DNA of 38,415 nt from a virus. This document shows positions 1-17,409 of the stretch, piece by piece (positions within the stretch are counted from its first letter, which is position 1; every line of letters starts with the position of its first letter). The stretch spans positions 1-38,415 of the IMG/VR virus record IMGVR_UViG_3300008113_000300; one strand, written 5' to 3'. Below the pieces are notes generated by a model, which was not told the DNA's origin, searched no databases, and saw nothing but the letters and a program-made list of their open reading frames with translations. The position numbers and the translations under genes were made by a program.

Positions 1-293
1 TTTGTTATTTTTTTGGCATTTGAGCTTAATTCCCATAGCTTACTAACACCGCCGGTTCTTGGTATTCTTTTCATCATGTCCGCGGGCAAATTGGCATTCT
101 TGAAAAAACTATAGACAAAAGCTGCACACCAAGGGTCACCTGGACTTATACCAACATTTTTCTGCATAGTCTCAACCTCAGGACCTTTATTAGATCCGGG
201 TGGCTTCTCCAGTGTTATTAATTTTAAAGCGCTGTCTGCTAATGCTGATATGCTCTCATTAATAAAATCATTAAAATTCTTAATTCTTCCCAT
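1..293 (-). CDS. CHAP/NlpC-type peptidoglycan hydrolase (endolysin-like), C-terminus cut by window edge
   Basis: The ATG is at 293 and the frame stays open to the window edge, giving 97 visible residues and no stop. The segment GDPWCAAFVYSFF carries the Cys of a papain-like CHAP or NlpC/P60 cell-wall hydrolase. The preceding GSNKGPEVE and following RTGGVSKLW fit the same group of peptidoglycan amidohydrolases or endopeptidases; the catalytic His should lie beyond the window. The first residues, MGRIKNFNDFINE, resemble the tag seen on other proteins in this block. That tag could mean the enzyme is packaged in the virion rather than made only for lysis. There is no signal peptide, so export would need a holin or delivery with the particle. 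Family call is firm; lysis versus entry role is open. Confidence 0.75.
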   Translation of the reverse strand, partial: MGRIKNFNDFINESISALADSALKLITLEKPPGSNKGPEVETMQKNVGISPGDPWCAAFVYSFFKNANLPADMMKRIPRTGGVSKLWELSSNAKKIT

Positions 294-1039: not shown

Positions 1040-1585
1040 TTATCTGCTTATAATAATCGATTTTTTACTAGATCCACTCTGAATTGACCAATTACTTCCC
1101 AATTGTGATATTGCTATAGACTTCATATACTCCATATACTCACCTTTACCAGAAAATTCGAGATTATCTTGCATTTCATCATACATTCTACTAATCTTTG
1201 GATTTGCCTCCAAGTAGCTATTTACACACTTAAATACAGTTTCCATAAGTCTTGATATCTCTCCACCTTCCATCTTAAACTTATCAGTATTGGTTTGTGG
1301 TATTTCCCTCTTGTCAACAGCGATATCATCTATAATCTCCGGAGATATTTTATTTATCGTCAATACGCAGTAGGAATTCTTTGGACCTTCTATTACTTCA
1401 TGATCCGAATATTTACCTATAATTAGATGAAATCCCTCCTGATTGTCGCTGCTCTCTTTATCTATATTAAAGAAATAGTGATATACATCACCGATTTTTT
1501 CCAATAGAAATGGGGATGTACCAAATCCGTCAGATTCATTCATTCTATTAATAAATTGATCGAATGATTCTACAATTTTTGTCAT
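1040..1585 (-). CDS. Hypothetical protein with capsid-targeting-like N-terminus, 181 residues
   Basis: No known fold is recognised. The N-terminus MTKIVESFDQFINRMNE is like those of three other proteins in this block and like the capsid-targeting peptides of T4 internal proteins, with a plausible protease site after NE (residues 16-17). The rest is a soluble alpha-beta protein: a beta-rich front (YHYFFNIDK, GFHLIIGKYSDHEVI, SYCVLTINKI) and a helical back (ISRLMETVFKCVNSYLEA), ending SSKKSIIISR. The gene lies 1 base after the ligase-NMNAT gene, so it is almost surely co-transcribed with it. It may be a partner or inhibitor of that enzyme, or an internal head protein. Neither is shown. Confidence 0.65.
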   Translation of the reverse strand: MTKIVESFDQFINRMNESDGFGTSPFLLEKIGDVYHYFFNIDKESSDNQEGFHLIIGKYSDHEVIEGPKNSYCVLTINKISPEIIDDIAVDKREIPQTNTDKFKMEGGEISRLMETVFKCVNSYLEANPKISRMYDEMQDNLEFSGKGEYMEYMKSIAISQLGSNWSIQSGSSKKSIIISR

Positions 1586-1586
1586 T

Positions 1587-3638
1587 TTATTGTTCGTTAT
1601 TTTTAATTTCTTCTATTTCATTATTAACTTCCTCTACAGTTTTCTCATCACCATATTCATTTAGATAATTAATAACAATAGATTCCTTTATGTCCTTGCC
1701 ATTCTGTGATGACACTAGCTGATTATAAAATGCAGAAACACCAGGAGGAACTAATTTCTTAAAACCAAGAAAGTCCTCCTCGGCTAATTTTTCCCTTACC
1801 TCGGTGCCACTACTAGATCTGGAGGTCTGTATTATTTCCATATCATCAGGAAAATCACCGCCAGCTTTTTTAAGGTAATCTGATTGTTTTTTATAGTCTT
1901 CTATTCTATCATCACCAGCAGCTATTGCTTTAGGTAGATAACCAAGCTCCTTAGACTTGCCGTAAATAACACCAAGTAATCCTCGGTCTATCATAAAAAA
2001 TCCTTGTATCTTACCTGCACTTTCCTTAACAACGGTTTCCATGTACTTTGATACAAGTTCACTGTTGAATGGGGATTTACCAGATTTATTGTGTCCGGGA
2101 TGAACCACTGCAATTACGCTAGGCAGATTGTTCTTTTCCATCATTTTCTTAACCATCTTTAGGTGTCCGTTATGAAATGGCTGAAATCTACCGATTATAA
2201 GGTTAACCTCCTCCAATTTCTTTTCCTCTTTCTCCTCTGGTTTTTTATCCTCCGTTATTTCAACGTTTGGCTTATCCTTGGTGTCTATAGTTTCTAGCTT
2301 TGATATAAACTCATTGTAAGAATAGAAGTGATCGTATTCTTCCTCTTCGTTAGCGACATCATCATTTTCTGATGTTGTGTATTCAACCTTCTTGGAGCTA
2401 AGATTATTTCTTTTGAAATCCATGAAGGATGGAATGCTAGACTCCTGTATCTTTGCAGTTTTCTTTGCTGAAACCACTCTTTCTATATCAGAGACCAATA
2501 AATTGAATTGATCTATTATACCAGCAGTTATTATACCACCAGCTCTTTTCTTTATCTTTCTGAATGAATTTAGAATAAGCTTAAATAACGACTCATAAGA
2601 ATCATCAGCTTCAAGATAACTTAAAACCCTTCTATCCTTTATTAATGGTTTATTTAATCTAAATTCTTCTTTCTTTAAATAATCAGGTTCCTGAAAATCC
2701 GCTCCCTTGTATTTGTAACCATTCTCATCTAAGAATTTAGCAAAAACATCAGATATGAATGAGATGTATCGCTGATCTTCAGTATCACCAGCAACATTAA
2801 AGCTATCAACACCTCTTTCCAATATGAAATTCATCACATCAAGCACAGTTATACCCAGAAAATCGCTAGGTTTTTCTGTGAATCTCTTTTTAGCTTTCTC
2901 CTTAGCAATCTCTGTAAAAACAGGATCAACCATTTTAGATAATATAGGCTCTGAATCAGAATCTTCCTCACCAAATCTAAATACTATACCCTCGATGGGC
3001 TTATCTAGATCAGCATTTAAAGCGCTCTCTTTAGCCTCGGGATTAAGAACACCGATAATATATCTAACAAAGCTTCTTGTCTTATATTCATTAACGAGAT
3101 CTTCAAAGGGAGTTCTAAGGAAATCTGATATGCTTTCTTTCTGCTCCTCCGATAATAGACCCTGGAAAATGATTGGTGGTCTTTCAACACCGATAAGATC
3201 TGCCCAAGTATCTAGCTTCTCTTTATTCTGTATTGTGTTTGATGGTTTACCGTCATCACTCTTTGTGTGTACATAGGAGAGAATCAGATTATTTTTAGGA
3301 AGTCTATCGTATGCGATTTCGACAGGCTGTGTATTTGAGAAATACTCCAATCCAAATTTCCATCCCCTAGGAATTTCTTTCAGAATATGTGGTGGCAAAG
3401 ATTCGATATATTGTATCGGCTTTTCATAATATTTCATTAGCGTTCTATCCACTAATGTTATCGGGTTTCTCTGATCTCTTTTATAAAAATTAAATCTTCC
3501 AGTTTCTAAGTCTCTATCAAACACAAATGCAGATCCGTCCATCTTTTCATTAACGGTCACATAAGAATTAAATAGGTTGTCTATGAATTCCTTCCCTTTC
3601 TTATTATAGATATCATATAAATGACTTATTCCTGACAT
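1587..3638 (-). CDS. Fusion of a polynucleotide-ligase-type nucleotidyltransferase and an NMN-adenylyltransferase-type domain, 683 residues
   Basis: Residues 1-250 carry the covalent nucleotidyltransferase motifs of ATP-dependent RNA/DNA ligases: motif I EKMDG (Lys32 as the AMP-accepting lysine), motif III WKFGLEYF (Glu98), motif IV IEGIVFRFG (Glu216), and a motif V candidate around Lys235. Residues 250-400 are helical, as in the C-terminal part of some RNA ligases. An acidic linker follows (about 400-477). Residues 478-640 form an HxGH nucleotidyltransferase domain: GRFQPFHNGH (His489, His492), and SSSGTEVR at 608-615 in place of the usual ISxTxxR. This second domain is closest to NadM/NadR NMN adenylyltransferases or related phage cytidylyltransferase-like proteins. 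Both active sites look intact. The start at 3638 follows a TATAAATA element. Substrates are unknown: RNA end sealing for the first domain and NAD synthesis for the second are family-based expectations. Confidence 0.8.
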   Translation of the reverse strand: MSGISHLYDIYNKKGKEFIDNLFNSYVTVNEKMDGSAFVFDRDLETGRFNFYKRDQRNPITLVDRTLMKYYEKPIQYIESLPPHILKEIPRGWKFGLEYFSNTQPVEIAYDRLPKNNLILSYVHTKSDDGKPSNTIQNKEKLDTWADLIGVERPPIIFQGLLSEEQKESISDFLRTPFEDLVNEYKTRSFVRYIIGVLNPEAKESALNADLDKPIEGIVFRFGEEDSDSEPILSKMVDPVFTEIAKEKAKKRFTEKPSDFLGITVLDVMNFILERGVDSFNVAGDTEDQRYISFISDVFAKFLDENGYKYKGADFQEPDYLKKEEFRLNKPLIKDRRVLSYLEADDSYESLFKLILNSFRKIKKRAGGIITAGIIDQFNLLVSDIERVVSAKKTAKIQESSIPSFMDFKRNNLSSKKVEYTTSENDDVANEEEEYDHFYSYNEFISKLETIDTKDKPNVEITEDKKPEEKEEKKLEEVNLIIGRFQPFHNGHLKMVKKMMEKNNLPSVIAVVHPGHNKSGKSPFNSELVSKYMETVVKESAGKIQGFFMIDRGLLGVIYGKSKELGYLPKAIAAGDDRIEDYKKQSDYLKKAGGDFPDDMEIIQTSRSSSGTEVREKLAEEDFLGFKKLVPPGVSAFYNQLVSSQNGKDIKESIVINYLNEYGDEKTVEEVNNEIEEIKNNEQ

Positions 3639-3668: not shown

Positions 3669-4604
3669 TTAAGATAACTGATTTATTTCGGATGGTATCT
3701 CCAAATTTGCTCTAGTTAAATATTCTTTGAACTTTTCGATTATGGCAGATAGTCTGTCATGTAAATCGAAATCATCCGATTCTATGATTCTTAAAAGATC
3801 CTCAAAAGTTTTGACATCGTTTATATCATACTCCCTACCAAGTGCAAATTTTACAAACTCGTGAGGATTTCTTGTTACAAATCTCTCACTGCCTTCAATT
3901 TTCTTTGCATTCTTTAATCTTGCTTTGAGCTTTCCTTTATATGACTTTGTGTGCCAGAATAGACCGTCGCTTAGTATTAAAACCGGCGTATCATAGTCCA
4001 TAACGTCACCATTCTCGTCACTATCTAATATCTGTCTTCTTTCGGATAATATTGCTGCTAGAAGCCAATTACGATGTGCTGACTTATATTTACTTTCATC
4101 TATCTTATAGTTGGGTGAGTAGTATATAAATTCTGCCCATTCCATACTGGAAATAGGTATTAGATCAAGCTGAACCATACCTTTATTAGGATCTCCCTGA
4201 ATTGGCCATCCTATACTAACTATATTTAGTCCCTTAAGATAATTTATCTCAGGGGTAAATCCAAGTGCATCAGACAACTTTTTACCATCTAATAAACCAT
4301 TAATATGGGATGCAACATCCTTAACTGTTATCTGATGTTCTCTGGCAAACCATGAGCTATCAATACCAAGATCGAGATCTCCCGATGTGTCATCAGGTTT
4401 TTTCTTTTTACCTATGCTTCCTATTATAATGTACTGATCATTAGCTTTTGTTTGATCTATTCCCAATATGGGAAACAATATGGATTTTATGCTCTCAAGT
4501 GTCTTTGGAAATTCGTCCTCTCGAATTCTTCTTGCACTTTTAATAGCTGCTCCACCTTCGAAAAGCATAACAAATCTATTAAAATCTAGTACCTTATTAG
4601 GCAT
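3669..4604 (-). CDS. Pol-beta-superfamily nucleotidyltransferase, 311 residues
   Basis: The signature of the Pol-beta superfamily is clear: IIIGSIG (Gly62-Ser63), then DLDLGID with Asp76 and Asp78, and a third acidic residue in VQLDLIP (Asp147). These should bind two metal ions for transfer of a nucleotide to a protein, RNA, DNA or small molecule. The rest is mostly helical. The N-terminus MPNKVLDFNRFVMLFE resembles the possible packaging tag of its neighbours. It overlaps the next upstream gene by 8 bases and is followed within 30 bases by the ligase-NMNAT gene, so a joint role in nucleic-acid end modification is plausible. I cannot tell a tRNA-type, MNT toxin-neutralising-type or other enzyme from the sequence alone. 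Overlap start at 4604 fits coupled translation. Confidence 0.75.
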   Translation of the reverse strand: MPNKVLDFNRFVMLFEGGAAIKSARRIREDEFPKTLESIKSILFPILGIDQTKANDQYIIIGSIGKKKKPDDTSGDLDLGIDSSWFAREHQITVKDVASHINGLLDGKKLSDALGFTPEINYLKGLNIVSIGWPIQGDPNKGMVQLDLIPISSMEWAEFIYYSPNYKIDESKYKSAHRNWLLAAILSERRQILDSDENGDVMDYDTPVLILSDGLFWHTKSYKGKLKARLKNAKKIEGSERFVTRNPHEFVKFALGREYDINDVKTFEDLLRIIESDDFDLHDRLSAIIEKFKEYLTRANLEIPSEINQLS

Positions 4605-5142
4605 TCTTTCCCATTTTTTTATGATAACGCTCCATTACATCATTAACGTAATCTGTGTACATCTCCTCGTCTTTATTCTTAGGATTTGCCGGATCGTATT
4701 CTTTACCAAAATATTTTTTACCTTTAAGTACACCCGATTTATAGAATCTTTCAGCATCAGCATCAGTAACTTTCTTATTGGAAAGATTATCCATCTCCCA
4801 TTTGTCAACGATCTCTTTTTTCTTTCCTGTAAGTTCATCTTTAGACAATTTAGAAAAACTGTCCTTATTATCACCCTTCGAAAAGAAATCCGCTATAGCC
4901 GCACCCGCACCTGCTATTAATCTAACAGTGTTTGGTATAAGATTGGTTGCCATTTTAGCAGTTTTGAATGGGTCGTTATGATCATCATAATATTTGGAGT
5001 AATAGCTATCACCCATTTCCTCTTTAACTCTAGAATTTACATTTCGTAACCATCTACTAAATTTAGTTTTACCAACAGCGCCATAAACATCGCTTTCGTT
5101 AACAATTTCTTCCGTAAATTCATTAAAGGATTTTATACTCAT
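4597..5142 (-). CDS. Hypothetical protein with capsid-targeting-like N-terminus, 181 residues
   Basis: Not recognised. It begins MSIKSFNEFTEEIVNE, the best example in this window of the F-x-x-F...E tag, close in style to the T4 internal protein peptide MKTYQEFIAE. A short Ala/Gly-rich, partly hydrophobic stretch (VRLIAGAGAAIADFF, about residues 73-87) could be an amphipathic or membrane-active helix. The remainder is charged and Lys/Asp-rich, ending in MERYHKKMGKNA. A small, basic, highly charged protein with such a tag would fit an internal head protein. The ATG follows an A-rich leader and an upstream GATATATA element 18 bases away. It overlaps the nucleotidyltransferase gene by 8 bases. 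Confidence 0.62.
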   Translation of the reverse strand: MSIKSFNEFTEEIVNESDVYGAVGKTKFSRWLRNVNSRVKEEMGDSYYSKYYDDHNDPFKTAKMATNLIPNTVRLIAGAGAAIADFFSKGDNKDSFSKLSKDELTGKKKEIVDKWEMDNLSNKKVTDADAERFYKSGVLKGKKYFGKEYDPANPKNKDEEMYTDYVNDVMERYHKKMGKNA

Positions 5143-9554: not shown

Positions 9555-9628
9555 AATTGTTTTTTAATTTTAATTTTTACTTTTTGTTTACTTTTTGTTT
9601 CTCTTGATTTTTGATTTATTTTTGATTT
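9555..9628 (-). promoter_or_regulatory. Repeat-rich unstructured leader of the ssb gene, possible autogenous operator
   Basis: On the minus strand two tandem pairs of 11-mers precede the ATG: AAATCAAAAAT twice (9607-9628) and AAACAAAAAGT twice (9579-9600), followed by AAAATTAAAATTAAAAAA. The region is nearly free of G and C and cannot fold. T4 gene 32 has a comparable AU-rich repeated leader on which gp32 assembles to repress its own translation. The first pair overlaps the stop codon of the isomerase gene. Operator function is inference. Confidence 0.5.
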
Positions 9629-10215
9629 ATTAATTTTTCCTCTATCATGTTGATCAAGGAATGTATTATTTTTATATGTAGTTCTTGTATACGATCCGCA
9701 TATCTATTTGAAGGGGTTTTTATGAAAACATCCACTAAGTCCTCGTAGTCGACTTGTAAATCGCCCTCACAGTCGGATGTAAGAATAACAACCATCATAT
9801 TCTTTCTTCTAGCCTCTAGACACCCGCAAATGATGTTCTCGGAATTACCCGATGTGGTAATACCAAAGAAAACGTCTCCTGAATTTCCTAGAGCCTCAAT
9901 GTATCTTGAAAAAATGTGTTTGAATCCATAATCATTACCCACACATGTGATATGGGATGGATCCGATATAGAAACTGCTGCTAGGCCTTTTCTATTATTT
10001 CGATATCTTCCACTAAGCTCCTCAGCAAAGTGCATAGCATCACACATAGATCCCCCATTTCCTGCGGAGATGATCTTGTTTCCTGATTCTAAAGATGTAA
10101 TGATTATTTCGGCTGCCTCTACTACCGAGTTTAGATAATCGGTGTTTGTAGAAAAATCTCTTAATATATCAGAGGCTTCCTGTAAGTGCTGGTTTAAGAT
10201 TTCCTTTAATTCCAT
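9616..10215 (-). CDS. gmhA: Sedoheptulose-7-phosphate isomerase (GmhA-type), 199 residues
   Basis: GmhA converts sedoheptulose 7-phosphate to D-glycero-D-manno-heptose 7-phosphate, the first step to ADP-heptose or GDP-heptose. The sequence follows E. coli GmhA closely: GNGGSMCDAMHFAEELSGRY (metal/catalytic His62 and Glu66, matching His61 and Glu65), then ITCVGNDYGF, ITTSGNSENI (phosphate loop) and YADRIQELHIKIIH with the catalytic His180. Length 199 against 192. The active site looks complete. It overlaps the resolvase gene by 47 bases and has an AAAGGAAAATT ribosome-binding region before its ATG. The context is replication, not glycan synthesis; no other heptose gene is in the window, so later steps would need host or distant phage enzymes. 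Confidence 0.88.
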   Translation of the reverse strand: MELKEILNQHLQEASDILRDFSTNTDYLNSVVEAAEIIITSLESGNKIISAGNGGSMCDAMHFAEELSGRYRNNRKGLAAVSISDPSHITCVGNDYGFKHIFSRYIEALGNSGDVFFGITTSGNSENIICGCLEARRKNMMVVILTSDCEGDLQVDYEDLVDVFIKTPSNRYADRIQELHIKIIHSLINMIEEKLINQK

Positions 10216-15258: not shown

Positions 15259-17409
15259 TTAGTCACCTATATTTGAGAAATCCTGACTAAGATATTCTTT
15301 TAAATTGTGAGATATTATGTCATCAATAACATATGTGTGTGCTTCCTCAACTTCTATTTTAACTATCTCTCCCATATCTATCCGATCCTTGCTTATTAAT
15401 GGCAGAGTTCCTGTAACTGTTTTTATTTCCTTCCCTATTTCTATATCGGTTATACGAACATATACATTATCGGAGGTTAAGAATTTATGGGTATCCGATA
15501 CAGTTACTGTTTTGTCACCTATTACTACCCTAACAATTGGCTGTATCATTATTTCTGCATGAGAGATCTTATAATAGCCCCATTCCTCCGTTTTGTCGTG
15601 TATTGTATAGATTTCTGTTCCAACTCTTAAATCTCCCGCTCTCATCCATTTACTATGATCTATCATAATCATCATATCTGGAGTAGGACAGCCACCTCCA
15701 CCTCCACCGCCGCTGGTGCTCGATGTTCCCGTTGAAACTCCCGTTGAAATCCCCGTTGAAATCCCCGTAGTAACTGAGCTGGTCTCGATACCAACGGTTG
15801 CAGAGTTTGTTAGATCTACATATCCACCTATACCTGTGCAAGTTCGATAGAAAAGCCTAGGGTTGGAGTTATTGGGATTTGCATATGCTAAATAATGCAA
15901 ATCGATGTATTTACATCTATTTCCGGGTATTTCAACAGCACTAAGAAATGAATTCGATACTAATCCACCAGTGGCAGTAAATGTGAAAATTATACCACCT
16001 ATATATTTCTCCAGGTTCTGTCCCGTATCATCAAGCATTATCCTATAAATATTTGTTTTATAAGTGTCATAAACTGGCGGTAGATTTTGAGATACTGATG
16101 CTGGAACTCTAATATAGACCCAAGGCCTATTGGATGCTGTATAGAATGTTGGTTTAATTACTATAACATTTGAATTATAATAATTGGATGCAGTTAAATC
16201 GAATACATTAAAATAGGAAGATTGAAATCCTAGACCCGATGGATATAGCGATGCTAAAACAGTTTCAGTTACTTTCTCTACAATTACTGCTTTCTTAACA
16301 TGATACGAGTAAGGTCCAGCGGTACCACCGGCTAATCCCCCAGTGGATCCAAATATGGTTTCAGCGTGTTTGGAAGTACTAATTGGTCCATATGGTTTAC
16401 CCGATAAAATTGGTCTTCCAGTAAGATCATTAAAAGAAAATGCGTTGGTAACATTAACATTAACGTCGTTCCATATACCACCCGCTAGAGATGCTGTCGC
16501 CGGAGAAATATTTAGAGAATATGTACCTGATTGAAAGGTTGATATTTTCATAGGACCCAGATGACTGAAAGCTGCTGCACTTGCAACCACATTCTGTGAT
16601 ATCAGTCTAAATATGGATCCACTACCAACTGTAGTGTTTGAATATAAATCGAAATCACCATCACCTCTAATGGAAAATGATGATGCTGATATGTTTAAAT
16701 TATTACCAAATAATATTGTTCTAGCCAGTCCGGAGTCTACTGATAGGCCAAGATATGATGTTACATTTAGTGATCCCGTTGATCTATAAATTAATCCGGT
16801 TGAAGAACCGCTGCTGTCCCATAAAAATGAAGGTACACCCGATGATATTGCACCAGACTTACCAAAACTCATTATGGGTCTGGTTGTTTGATCTGATGTT
16901 GATACCACAACCTTTGACTTATTTGGATTGGAATCGGAAGCACCCAATACTCCGTCATTTATAACCAAATTTATTAGAGGAGAAACCGCCGTATCTTTAA
17001 TACCGATAGCGTATTTTTCGGTGGATCCAGCAGGACCTAATATCCACGGGAACGATTTGAAATAAGCCGAGTTAAAGAATGAATATCCACTATAATTCCA
17101 AGCACCTGTAGTCCCCAGTGTTTTTATATCACCGTCCCCTGATGAGTTATCGACCCATACATCATAAGGTATTGACTGACTGCTTAGTGGTTGTGTTGGT
17201 TGTTTAAACCACTGATTTGCTCTGATCCCTGTTGCACCCTTTGTACCTCTATATCCGGCAGGTCCATATAGGCCAGTAGCGCCTCTAGGTCCCATGTGAC
17301 CATCCGGACCAACTCCAAAAAATAGAATCTGATTAAAATTATAGTTAATCTTTCTTACTATCTCTTTTTGAGAATCACCTTGGAAAATATATTTAGTGTT
17401 AAAGTGCAT
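15259..17409 (-). CDS. Collagen-like tail-fibre protein with C-terminal Hint (intein-type) domain, 716 residues
   Basis: Residues 1-32 hold the adaptor motif KINYNFNQILFFGVG shared with the next two fibre proteins. Residues about 33-66 are Gly-X-Y collagen repeats (GPDGHMGPRGATGLYGPAGY), followed by the shared DVWVDNSSGDGDIK...GAWNYSGYSFF module. The middle (about 110-545) is a Ser/Gly/Tyr-rich beta fibre shaft. Residues 548-563 are four TG(I/V/T)S repeats, then seven Gly, then a Hint domain from Cys574 to Asn702, and 14 more residues. The fibre should trimerise and bind host surface glycans or proteins. The Hint domain could cleave at its start and shed or expose the fibre tip. Start at 17409 leaves 3 bases to the previous gene. 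Confidence 0.85.
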   Translation of the reverse strand: MHFNTKYIFQGDSQKEIVRKINYNFNQILFFGVGPDGHMGPRGATGLYGPAGYRGTKGATGIRANQWFKQPTQPLSSQSIPYDVWVDNSSGDGDIKTLGTTGAWNYSGYSFFNSAYFKSFPWILGPAGSTEKYAIGIKDTAVSPLINLVINDGVLGASDSNPNKSKVVVSTSDQTTRPIMSFGKSGAISSGVPSFLWDSSGSSTGLIYRSTGSLNVTSYLGLSVDSGLARTILFGNNLNISASSFSIRGDGDFDLYSNTTVGSGSIFRLISQNVVASAAAFSHLGPMKISTFQSGTYSLNISPATASLAGGIWNDVNVNVTNAFSFNDLTGRPILSGKPYGPISTSKHAETIFGSTGGLAGGTAGPYSYHVKKAVIVEKVTETVLASLYPSGLGFQSSYFNVFDLTASNYYNSNVIVIKPTFYTASNRPWVYIRVPASVSQNLPPVYDTYKTNIYRIMLDDTGQNLEKYIGGIIFTFTATGGLVSNSFLSAVEIPGNRCKYIDLHYLAYANPNNSNPRLFYRTCTGIGGYVDLTNSATVGIETSSVTTGISTGISTGVSTGTSSTSGGGGGGGCPTPDMMIMIDHSKWMRAGDLRVGTEIYTIHDKTEEWGYYKISHAEIMIQPIVRVVIGDKTVTVSDTHKFLTSDNVYVRITDIEIGKEIKTVTGTLPLISKDRIDMGEIVKIEVEEAHTYVIDDIISHNLKEYLSQDFSNIGD
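15304..15690 (-). other. Hint domain at fibre C-terminus (129 residues)
   Basis: Block A begins at Cys574 (CPTPDMMIMI, with RAGDLRVGTEIYTI). Block B is VTVSDTHKFL with His641, and blocks F and G read VEVEEAHTYVIDDIISHN with His701-Asn702. These are the conserved parts of intein and hedgehog-type Hint domains. The residue after Asn is Leu703, not Cys, Ser or Thr, so true splicing lacks its nucleophile. N-terminal thioester cleavage or C-terminal Asn cyclisation remains possible. There is no homing endonuclease insert. Confidence 0.85.
15721..15768 (-). repeat. Four 12-base repeats encoding TG(I/V/T)S in the fibre linker
   Basis: On the plus strand the unit is close to CGTTGAAATCCC, in four near copies in frame, encoding TGIS, TGIS, TGVS and TGTS (residues 548-563). 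The copies are almost identical at the base level, so they look recent and prone to slippage, which would change linker length in 4-residue steps. Confidence 0.8.

Follow-up and report, generated by a model that had tools for sequence, protein, structure and literature searches.

Several described systems are close to the protein reported here. The internal head proteins of phage T4 (IPI-III and Alt) carry a capsid-targeting leader of 10-19 residues that the prohead protease gp21 cuts after L/I-X-E (PMC9026906, PMC3012670), and positions 4 and 7 of the IPIII leader are assigned to targeting and positions 8 and 10 to processing (PMC9026906). Enzymes related to nicotinamide adenine dinucleotide (NAD), with ART, Macro, NADAR, and Nudix domains, have been argued to be packaged in heads and injected; the case there is made from gene context or from fusions with MuF, portal, or capsid-protease domains, and the available text does not describe NadM/NadR as packaged (PMC9503650). 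Here, we analyze P0001, a protein of 683 residues encoded on the minus strand (3638..1587) of a 38-kb virus record (IMGVR_UViG_3300008113_000300, 38,415 nucleotides; hereafter the window, read as DNA, with all positions being window positions). P0001 joins an RNA-ligase-like domain, a linker, and a HIGH-type nucleotidyltransferase (NTase) domain resembling nicotinamide mononucleotide (NMN) adenylyltransferases (NMNATs), and its linker holds conserved elements that resemble the T4 leaders. We consider it fairly probable that P0001 is a virion cargo polyprotein, i.e. packaged in the head and cut by protease. The usual picture of phage enzymes for RNA repair and NAD salvage is that they are synthesized once infection has begun.

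The translated open reading frame (ORF) and a scan for its family place the three parts along 1587..3638; a plus-strand reading of this interval is ruled out by stops throughout. All features given below lie on the minus strand. An earlier reading of the sequence alone had proposed an unusual fusion of a polynucleotide ligase with an NMNAT. Both identities and the unusual pairing are borne out by profiles and by the predicted fold of the ligase part, and the active-site residues are where that reading had placed them, i.e. Lys32 (EKMDG), Glu98 (KFGLEY), Glu216 (IEGIVF), GRFQPFHNGH at residues 483-492, and SSGTEVR at 609-615. A literature search limited to open-licence PubMed Central papers returned no recognized description of a ligase-NMNAT fusion or of a packaged NMNAT.

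For the ligase part, we used structure prediction because its profile found nothing meaningful among PDB sequences (best E 0.92, an unrelated enzyme). The AlphaFold2 model of residues 1-409, built with 32 sequences, has a predicted local distance difference test score (pLDDT) of 86 and a predicted template modeling score (pTM) of 0.79, with residues 395-409 below pLDDT 50. Its top PDB match is T4 RNA ligase 2 (Foldseek, 1.5e-7; for 2hvr, VIA Z 12.1 with 190 residues aligned at 3.5 A), and Naegleria RNA ligase and trypanosome REL1 are among the next. The fold matches span residues 1-255, taking in the Rnl2-like nucleotidyltransferase domain (residues 1-245; 2904..3638) and barely covering the mainly helical part behind it (residues 246-394; 2457..2903). 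On P0001 alone, RNA_ligase (PF09414) matches residues 26-223 at 1.5e-3, under the Pfam cut-off, while 26/35 aligned family members are matched at E<=0.1 (best 5.8e-7). Peptidase_U32, weakly matched in 8/35 members (best 2.3e-4), finds no support in the predicted fold.

Ligase motif V usually reads KxK, i.e. with two lysines. P0001 is like the T4 RNA ligase 2 family in its fold, in the Lys of motif I, and in the Glu residues of motifs III and IV, all present in the window protein and in most relatives. It differs in being fused to another enzyme, in the loss of the motif I Lys from part of its family, and in the second Lys of motif V, replaced by Val in all 56 distinct relatives that reach this motif. 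Because this Lys is absent, we call P0001 RNA-ligase-like and do not file it as an Rnl2 member; its ligase-like part would presumably seal RNA. The impression that both active sites are complete therefore holds for the named motifs, stops short of motif V, and, as detailed below, does not extend to the whole family.

The second domain (residues 478-640; 1719..2207) was recognized with Pfam, PHROG, PDB-sequence, and NCBIfam profiles. Pfam CTP_transf_like covers residues 481-582 over its cut-off (8.3e-7), PHROG 395 and 3041 ("cytidyltransferase") match P0001, and a profile of the domain finds archaeal NMNAT-type MJ0541 (8.3e-8) and the NMNAT 2qjt (1.4e-6) among PDB sequences. The HxGH (residues 489-492), SxGT..R, and Q-P-F-H motifs are present. 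The domain shares GRFQPFHxGH and SGTEVR with NadM and archaeal NMNATs, its best profile matches (PDB sequences and NCBIfam); in contrast to these, it has no Nudix partner. We label it NMNAT-like because its scores lie far below the curated NMNAT cut-offs (NF002243, 36.4 bits vs 127; TIGR01527, 28.8 vs 181.2), and NMN is, judging from the motifs and profiles, its likely substrate.

When viral contigs were scanned once for other phage proteins with both domains, relatives appeared at 78 loci, where 72 ORFs are complete and contig ends truncate the other 6; this number of loci rules out a sequencing artifact or a chance fusion. The fusion is real, conserved, and widespread in giant T4-type phages. 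A second scan, made with the ligase alignment and considered for the best 80 of 329 relatives, overlaps the first. In BFVD, a 623-aa protein of an uncultured phage is named for a cytidyltransferase-like domain and its other part matches the ligase model; its name and length suggest a further fused relative. By megablast, window bases 1-25000 have no near-identical DNA in a phage collection. Motif counts refer to 79 records including the window, which represent 57 distinct proteins, 52 of them reaching HxGH.

Motif I reads EK[MI]DG in 50/57 distinct proteins, and HxGH is intact in 44/52. The remaining seven motif I sequences read ENLDG, with Asn in place of Lys32; in all seven proteins (one of them cut) motif III (Glu98) and the motif IV Glu are also altered, and both HxGH and SxGT are degenerate in the six whose sequence extends into the second domain. 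Such losses are what one would expect if P0001 used enzyme folds for a mainly structural role (scaffold or chaperone) in the head core or in assembly, with catalysis secondary or lost. The ENLDG clade keeps a full-length protein, and further cases point the same way: three fusions combine EKLNG with NNGH (L159, L160, and L162), another has lost motif I and kept HxGH (L169), the fused form of LR756500 (462 kb) is degenerate at both sites, and in four records of 635-735 kb (L082, L083, L085, and L086) the ligase-like protein stands alone and has no motif I Lys. T4 Rnl1, which has a noncatalytic tail-fiber role, offers a parallel. Most distinct relatives nevertheless keep both motif sets, in step with a neighboring NTase gene described below, and a mainly structural protein is, to our mind, an improbable explanation. 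A deep fusion of 981 aa (L164) has both the ligase and the HxGH motifs. As side observations, the stand-alone ligase-like proteins of the four largest records have an F-rich motif near the C-terminus, and L164 has ~350 extra residues behind the NTase domain, among which a GEGD..EVKG stretch resembles a nuclease when judged by eye.

Neither the length nor the composition of the linker is fixed, but three short elements within it are constant. The first is a predicted prohead-protease site, IQE|S (residues 397-400; 2439..2450), which lies in the stretch below pLDDT 50 and agrees with the T4 motif L/I-X-E. Among the 52 complete distinct proteins, [IVTA]xE[SQ] precedes the next element in 49 and the stricter [LIV]xES in 47, vs a shuffled mean of 2.4. 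The second is a capsid-targeting-like FxxF block, IPSFMDFK (block 1; residues 402-409; 2412..2435), matched by regular expression in 52/52 and often written I/L/V-P-S-F-x-D-F. The third is a similar block upstream of the NTase domain, FYSYNEFISKLE (block 2; residues 438-449; 2292..2327), matched in 50/52, often as S-Y-N-x-F-I, and found in the position where stand-alone relatives of the NTase domain hold an N-terminal leader. FxxF also stands between the domains in 14/14 fused proteins from the deeper set of relatives (L185 being an ordinary cut one, and L149 and L157 being repeat contigs of L063 and L061 from the first scan). Two more cut sites are possible. ITE (residues 461-463; 2250..2258) precedes the NTase domain, where the signal is weaker ([LIV]xE in 44/52 vs a shuffled mean of 31.4), and IKE|S (residues 650-653; 1680..1691) lies in the C-terminal tail, where [LIV]xE[SGAND] occurs in 24/25 tails of >=12 residues vs a shuffled mean of 8.2 (in the other 27 proteins the tail is shorter or absent, and L018 was set aside).

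The sequence-only reading, which took P0001 to work inside the cell as a bifunctional enzyme, had overlooked this linker, in which the conserved [IV]xE-S and FxxF elements suggest targeting to the capsid and cutting by a prohead protease. Clades without one or both active sites retain much of this linker pattern. In the ENLDG clade, where both sites are degenerate, [VI][EQ]ES and both FxxF blocks are still present; the linker is therefore maintained independently of catalysis, which argues that the role as head cargo is more constant than enzyme activity, which can be lost. P0001 is like the T4 internal head proteins in its FxxF leader grammar and predicted L/I-x-E site, related records likewise contain an S77 protease and a gp23 capsid gene, and T4 Alt is also an enzyme. 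The T4 leaders are N-terminal, whereas the targeting-like elements of P0001 lie inside a two-enzyme chain, and for this reason we do not file it as a T4-type internal head protein.

The ligase and adenylyltransferase domain types both use adenosine tri-/monophosphate (ATP/AMP) chemistry. Their presence in one chain could mean two enzymes working on one substrate, e.g. joining, capping, or decapping NAD-capped or adenylated RNA, a role that the sequence-only reading had also raised. We saw no specific support for it, and no search was aimed at that role. The linker evidence favors separation after packaging, and in the L051/L052 group HxGH has degenerated alongside retained ligase motifs; a shared substrate is in our estimate very improbable.

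Leaders are also found on genes around P0001. An N-terminal FxxF followed by [LIVM]xE[SGANDE] occurs in three flanking families (38/39, 37/39, and 33/45 distinct proteins). These comprise a Pol-beta-fold NTase (3669..4604; leader FNRFVMLFE|GG), a 181-aa protein (4597..5142; capsid-targeting-like leader FNEFTEEIVNE|S, 37/39 distinct relatives), and a second 181-aa protein (1040..1585; capsid-targeting-like leader FDQFINRMNE|S DGFG, 33/45, some of the 45 having shortened starts in the ORF calls). A protein start cut by the window end (3..293) carries the leader FNDFINE|S, as do 4/5 of its distinct relatives. By contrast, seven other neighboring conserved families have leader counts of 0/44, 0/48, 0/42, 1/46, 0/35, 0/39, and 1/41; omitted from this list are sets of 2, 5, and 22 proteins (0, 4, and 0 with a leader, respectively) and P0001 itself (0/39). 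At one locus (L018), the next leader-bearing gene, of the family at 1040..1585, is fused in frame onto the ligase protein (855 aa), which may reflect a stop lost through sequencing error.

The leader of the Pol-beta-fold NTase comprises residues 1-16 (4557..4604); E16-G17-G18 is invariant in 32/32 family members, and residues 1-17 are the only stretch below pLDDT 50 in the model. Two homologs have no leader, one in Sinorhizobium phage Phosso (annotated start) and one in Lak-C1 (own ORF call); they begin M-GGAAFK and M-SGMAIK, respectively, at the predicted mature end after E16|GG; upstream in frame, 16 and 4 codons, respectively, lead to a stop without a start codon. We regard these leaderless homologs as the best single support for the predicted cut site of this neighbor. 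The Pol-beta assignment comes from a VIA Z of 9.8 and a GS..DxD..D motif read by eye; Foldseek on the model was not significant (best 0.015; 0/121 at E<=0.001), and Pfam, PHROGs, and NCBIfam gave no relevant match, including none to any RNA-repair NTase family already described. The neighbor of P0001 resembles RlaP and further Pol-beta NTases known from phage RNA repair (PMC7824862) in its predicted Pol-beta-like fold, its GS..DxD..D motif, and its place beside a ligase-like gene; it differs from them in its leader and in the lack of a relevant family match.

This NTase lies in the flank of 62/63 loci with the ligase Lys and HxGH intact (records, not distinct proteins) and of 0/9 loci with a degenerate HxGH, the 6 cut loci being set aside. 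Motif retention thus tracks the neighboring NTase, and catalysis is therefore pointed to. Searching whole records with the Pol-beta alignment gave 0/15 (12 behind NTase-less loci plus L081, L150, and L160), mostly fragments; this empty search shows nothing by itself, but the same alignment, used as a profile, did detect the NTase at 66 other loci. Phosso (L283:4806-6858) has a ligase-like ORF (EKLDG; PF09414 at 0.085) that overlaps a Pol-beta-type NTase gene. Phosso is a named jumbo phage in which both overlapping genes are annotated as hypothetical. Among 10 large related records, six also hold a gene of the NadV/NAPRTase family (PF04095). The ligase-like part and the Pol-beta-fold NTase would together fit end repair plus sealing, with NAD supply alongside.

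RNA repair combined with NAD rebuilding, as suggested by the sequence-only reading, is compatible with these gene occurrences; the degenerate clades, an NMN specificity that is predicted, and a second RNA ligase in all 10 large records temper it. As a rival explanation, P0001 would be synthesized in the infected cell and serve there, as one bifunctional chain, in both RNA repair and NAD salvage, with linker motifs that dock something else. The retention of the motif I Lys and of HxGH in most distinct relatives, the PF04095 genes, and the Pol-beta-fold NTase in the flank and beside the Phosso ligase-like gene all suit such an enzyme, yet it leaves unexplained why the linker conserves E-S and FxxF and why the three neighbors and the stand-alone NTases bear leaders, and it sits poorly with a separate and better-matching RNA ligase in every one of the large records. 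We regard this explanation as unlikely.

The stand-alone relatives of the NTase domain bear directly on targeting. We considered the best 80 of 138 such relatives and read L147-L202, of which 49 are distinct by their ends. Among the matches listed, stand-alone NTases open with leaders, e.g. MKHVKLFEQFINE-A or MNYIKTFESFIFE-A, and a regular expression finds leader plus cut site in 16/19 short stand-alone proteins, in 0/10 kinase-NTase proteins, and in 0/6 others. By eye, this set includes a false positive in which FQPF was matched (L193), a leader placed after an inner Met (L176), a protein with FxxF only (L180), and one resembling a truncated kinase fusion (L197). Capsid targeting therefore appears to accompany the enzyme even when unfused, and from these sequences a capsid-targeted NMNAT-like enzyme very probably exists by itself. 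The T4-type prohead protease (PF03420) occurs in 2/8 records with leader-tagged stand-alone NTases, namely the two of >150 kb and none of the six of 20-109 kb, and in 1/4 further records. One leader-bearing stand-alone protein (L172) is about equally close to phosphopantetheine adenylyltransferase and to NMNAT. The matches in Stenotrophomonas and Xanthomonas phages are stand-alone, and those of Moby and X1 have no leader. Three much larger proteins (L183, L186, and L199; 1440-1948 aa) carry FQPFHxGH near residues 936-997 and by eye resemble phage polyvalent proteins.

Candidate machinery for packaging and cutting is found in related records. PF03420 is present in 9/10 large related records, as is the gp23 capsid (PF07068). 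The capsid N-terminus in these records has a conserved SLNE-SAGAYN stretch, and its alignment with T4 gp23 is too weak there to place the cut site. In 5/6 capsid loci, the gene after the capsid gene has x-P-S-F-x-x-F at its start or <=10 residues in, the same words as block 1 of the P0001 linker.

If P0001 is indeed a cargo polyprotein, it would enter the prohead core through the FxxF elements located between its domains, not at its N-terminus. A T4-type prohead protease (gp21, S77) would then cut after [IV]xE and release the ligase-like and NMNAT-like parts as separate internal head proteins, and both would be delivered with the DNA beside the packaged Pol-beta-fold NTase and two further leader-bearing proteins. 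Inside the cell, before phage gene expression, these proteins would act in RNA end repair and sealing, e.g. of transfer RNA (tRNA) cut by host defense, and would restore NAD. From packaging, cleavage, and injection to the timing, the substrates, and a part in repair, this course of events is what we infer from the features above. The complete scenario, i.e. a giant-phage polyprotein kit of ligase and NMNAT with an internal targeting segment, released by protease and injected with the Pol-beta-fold NTase against tRNA-cutting and NAD-draining defenses before phage expression, is one we hold only tentatively. Such a phage may carry a ready-made repair kit into the infected cell; pre-loaded repair enzymes, if true, would be counter-defense at time zero, and an internal targeting segment flanked by maturation-protease sites, if true, would be a phage polyprotein strategy. 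Should the leader grammar be confirmed, proteins that giant phages might inject could be listed from sequence alone; one record offers ~70 such ORFs in 400 kb.

A number of observations weigh against head packaging of P0001 as an active repair polyprotein. Concerning catalysis, the second motif V position is Val throughout, some clades have lost Lys32, HxGH, or both, and each of the 10 large records encodes another RNA ligase with a much better PF09414 match (1e-24 to 1e-30) than the fused homolog, which PF09414 finds in 9/10 of them at about 1e-6 to 3e-4, missing the degenerate one of LR756500. The association with the Pol-beta-fold NTase comes from a few clades and not from independent events, and L059, one of the nine loci with degenerate HxGH, has only 638 bases upstream. 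Concerning targeting, the FxxF and cut-site elements stand between domains, unlike the N-terminal leaders of T4; block 2 is missing in L051/L052; and the shuffles used for linker and tail ignore the relatedness of the proteins. At the N-terminus of P0001, an FxxF-type YxxY is found in 33/39 distinct proteins, within a helix of the AlphaFold2 model, and with a cut site in 0/39. Scored with a motif matrix built from N-terminal leaders, the linker does not stand out: the best internal score has a family median of 7.2 vs 4.2 for other long proteins (90th percentile 9.1) and often falls elsewhere in the protein.

In 400 kb of one record (G002; L099-L118), ~70/571 ORFs have an N-terminal FxxF leader by the trained matrix, with 1.2 expected. 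Training on these very leaders inflates the count; without training, the leaders are enriched about two- to threefold (in one check, 0.119 vs 0.063, ~twofold). Ten of these ORFs were compared with Pfam, and the five matched are an adenylate kinase, an RNase_T exonuclease, a RimK-type ATP-grasp protein, a MoxR-like ATPase, and a CHAP protein. Because so many ORFs of this record bear the leader, including the adenylate kinase and the CHAP protein, it could carry another meaning. Matches in the phage collection come from 21 records, and the six that match the ligase part are all uncultured. We found no virion proteomics for these phages, and the term "mass spectrometry" is absent from the Ps15 paper.

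Elsewhere in the window, PHROG matches identify DNA helicase, primase, single-strand-binding, RuvC-like, tail-tube, and PhoH-like genes. Between the RuvC-like and single-strand-binding genes lies a SIS-domain/GmhA-like protein (9616-10215; named by eye; PHROG 14703, function unknown). The protein at 15259-17409 has collagen-like GxY repeats near its start, and its end, from CPTPDMMIMIDHSKWMRAGDL to HTYVIDDIISHN, resembles an intein/Hint domain by eye.

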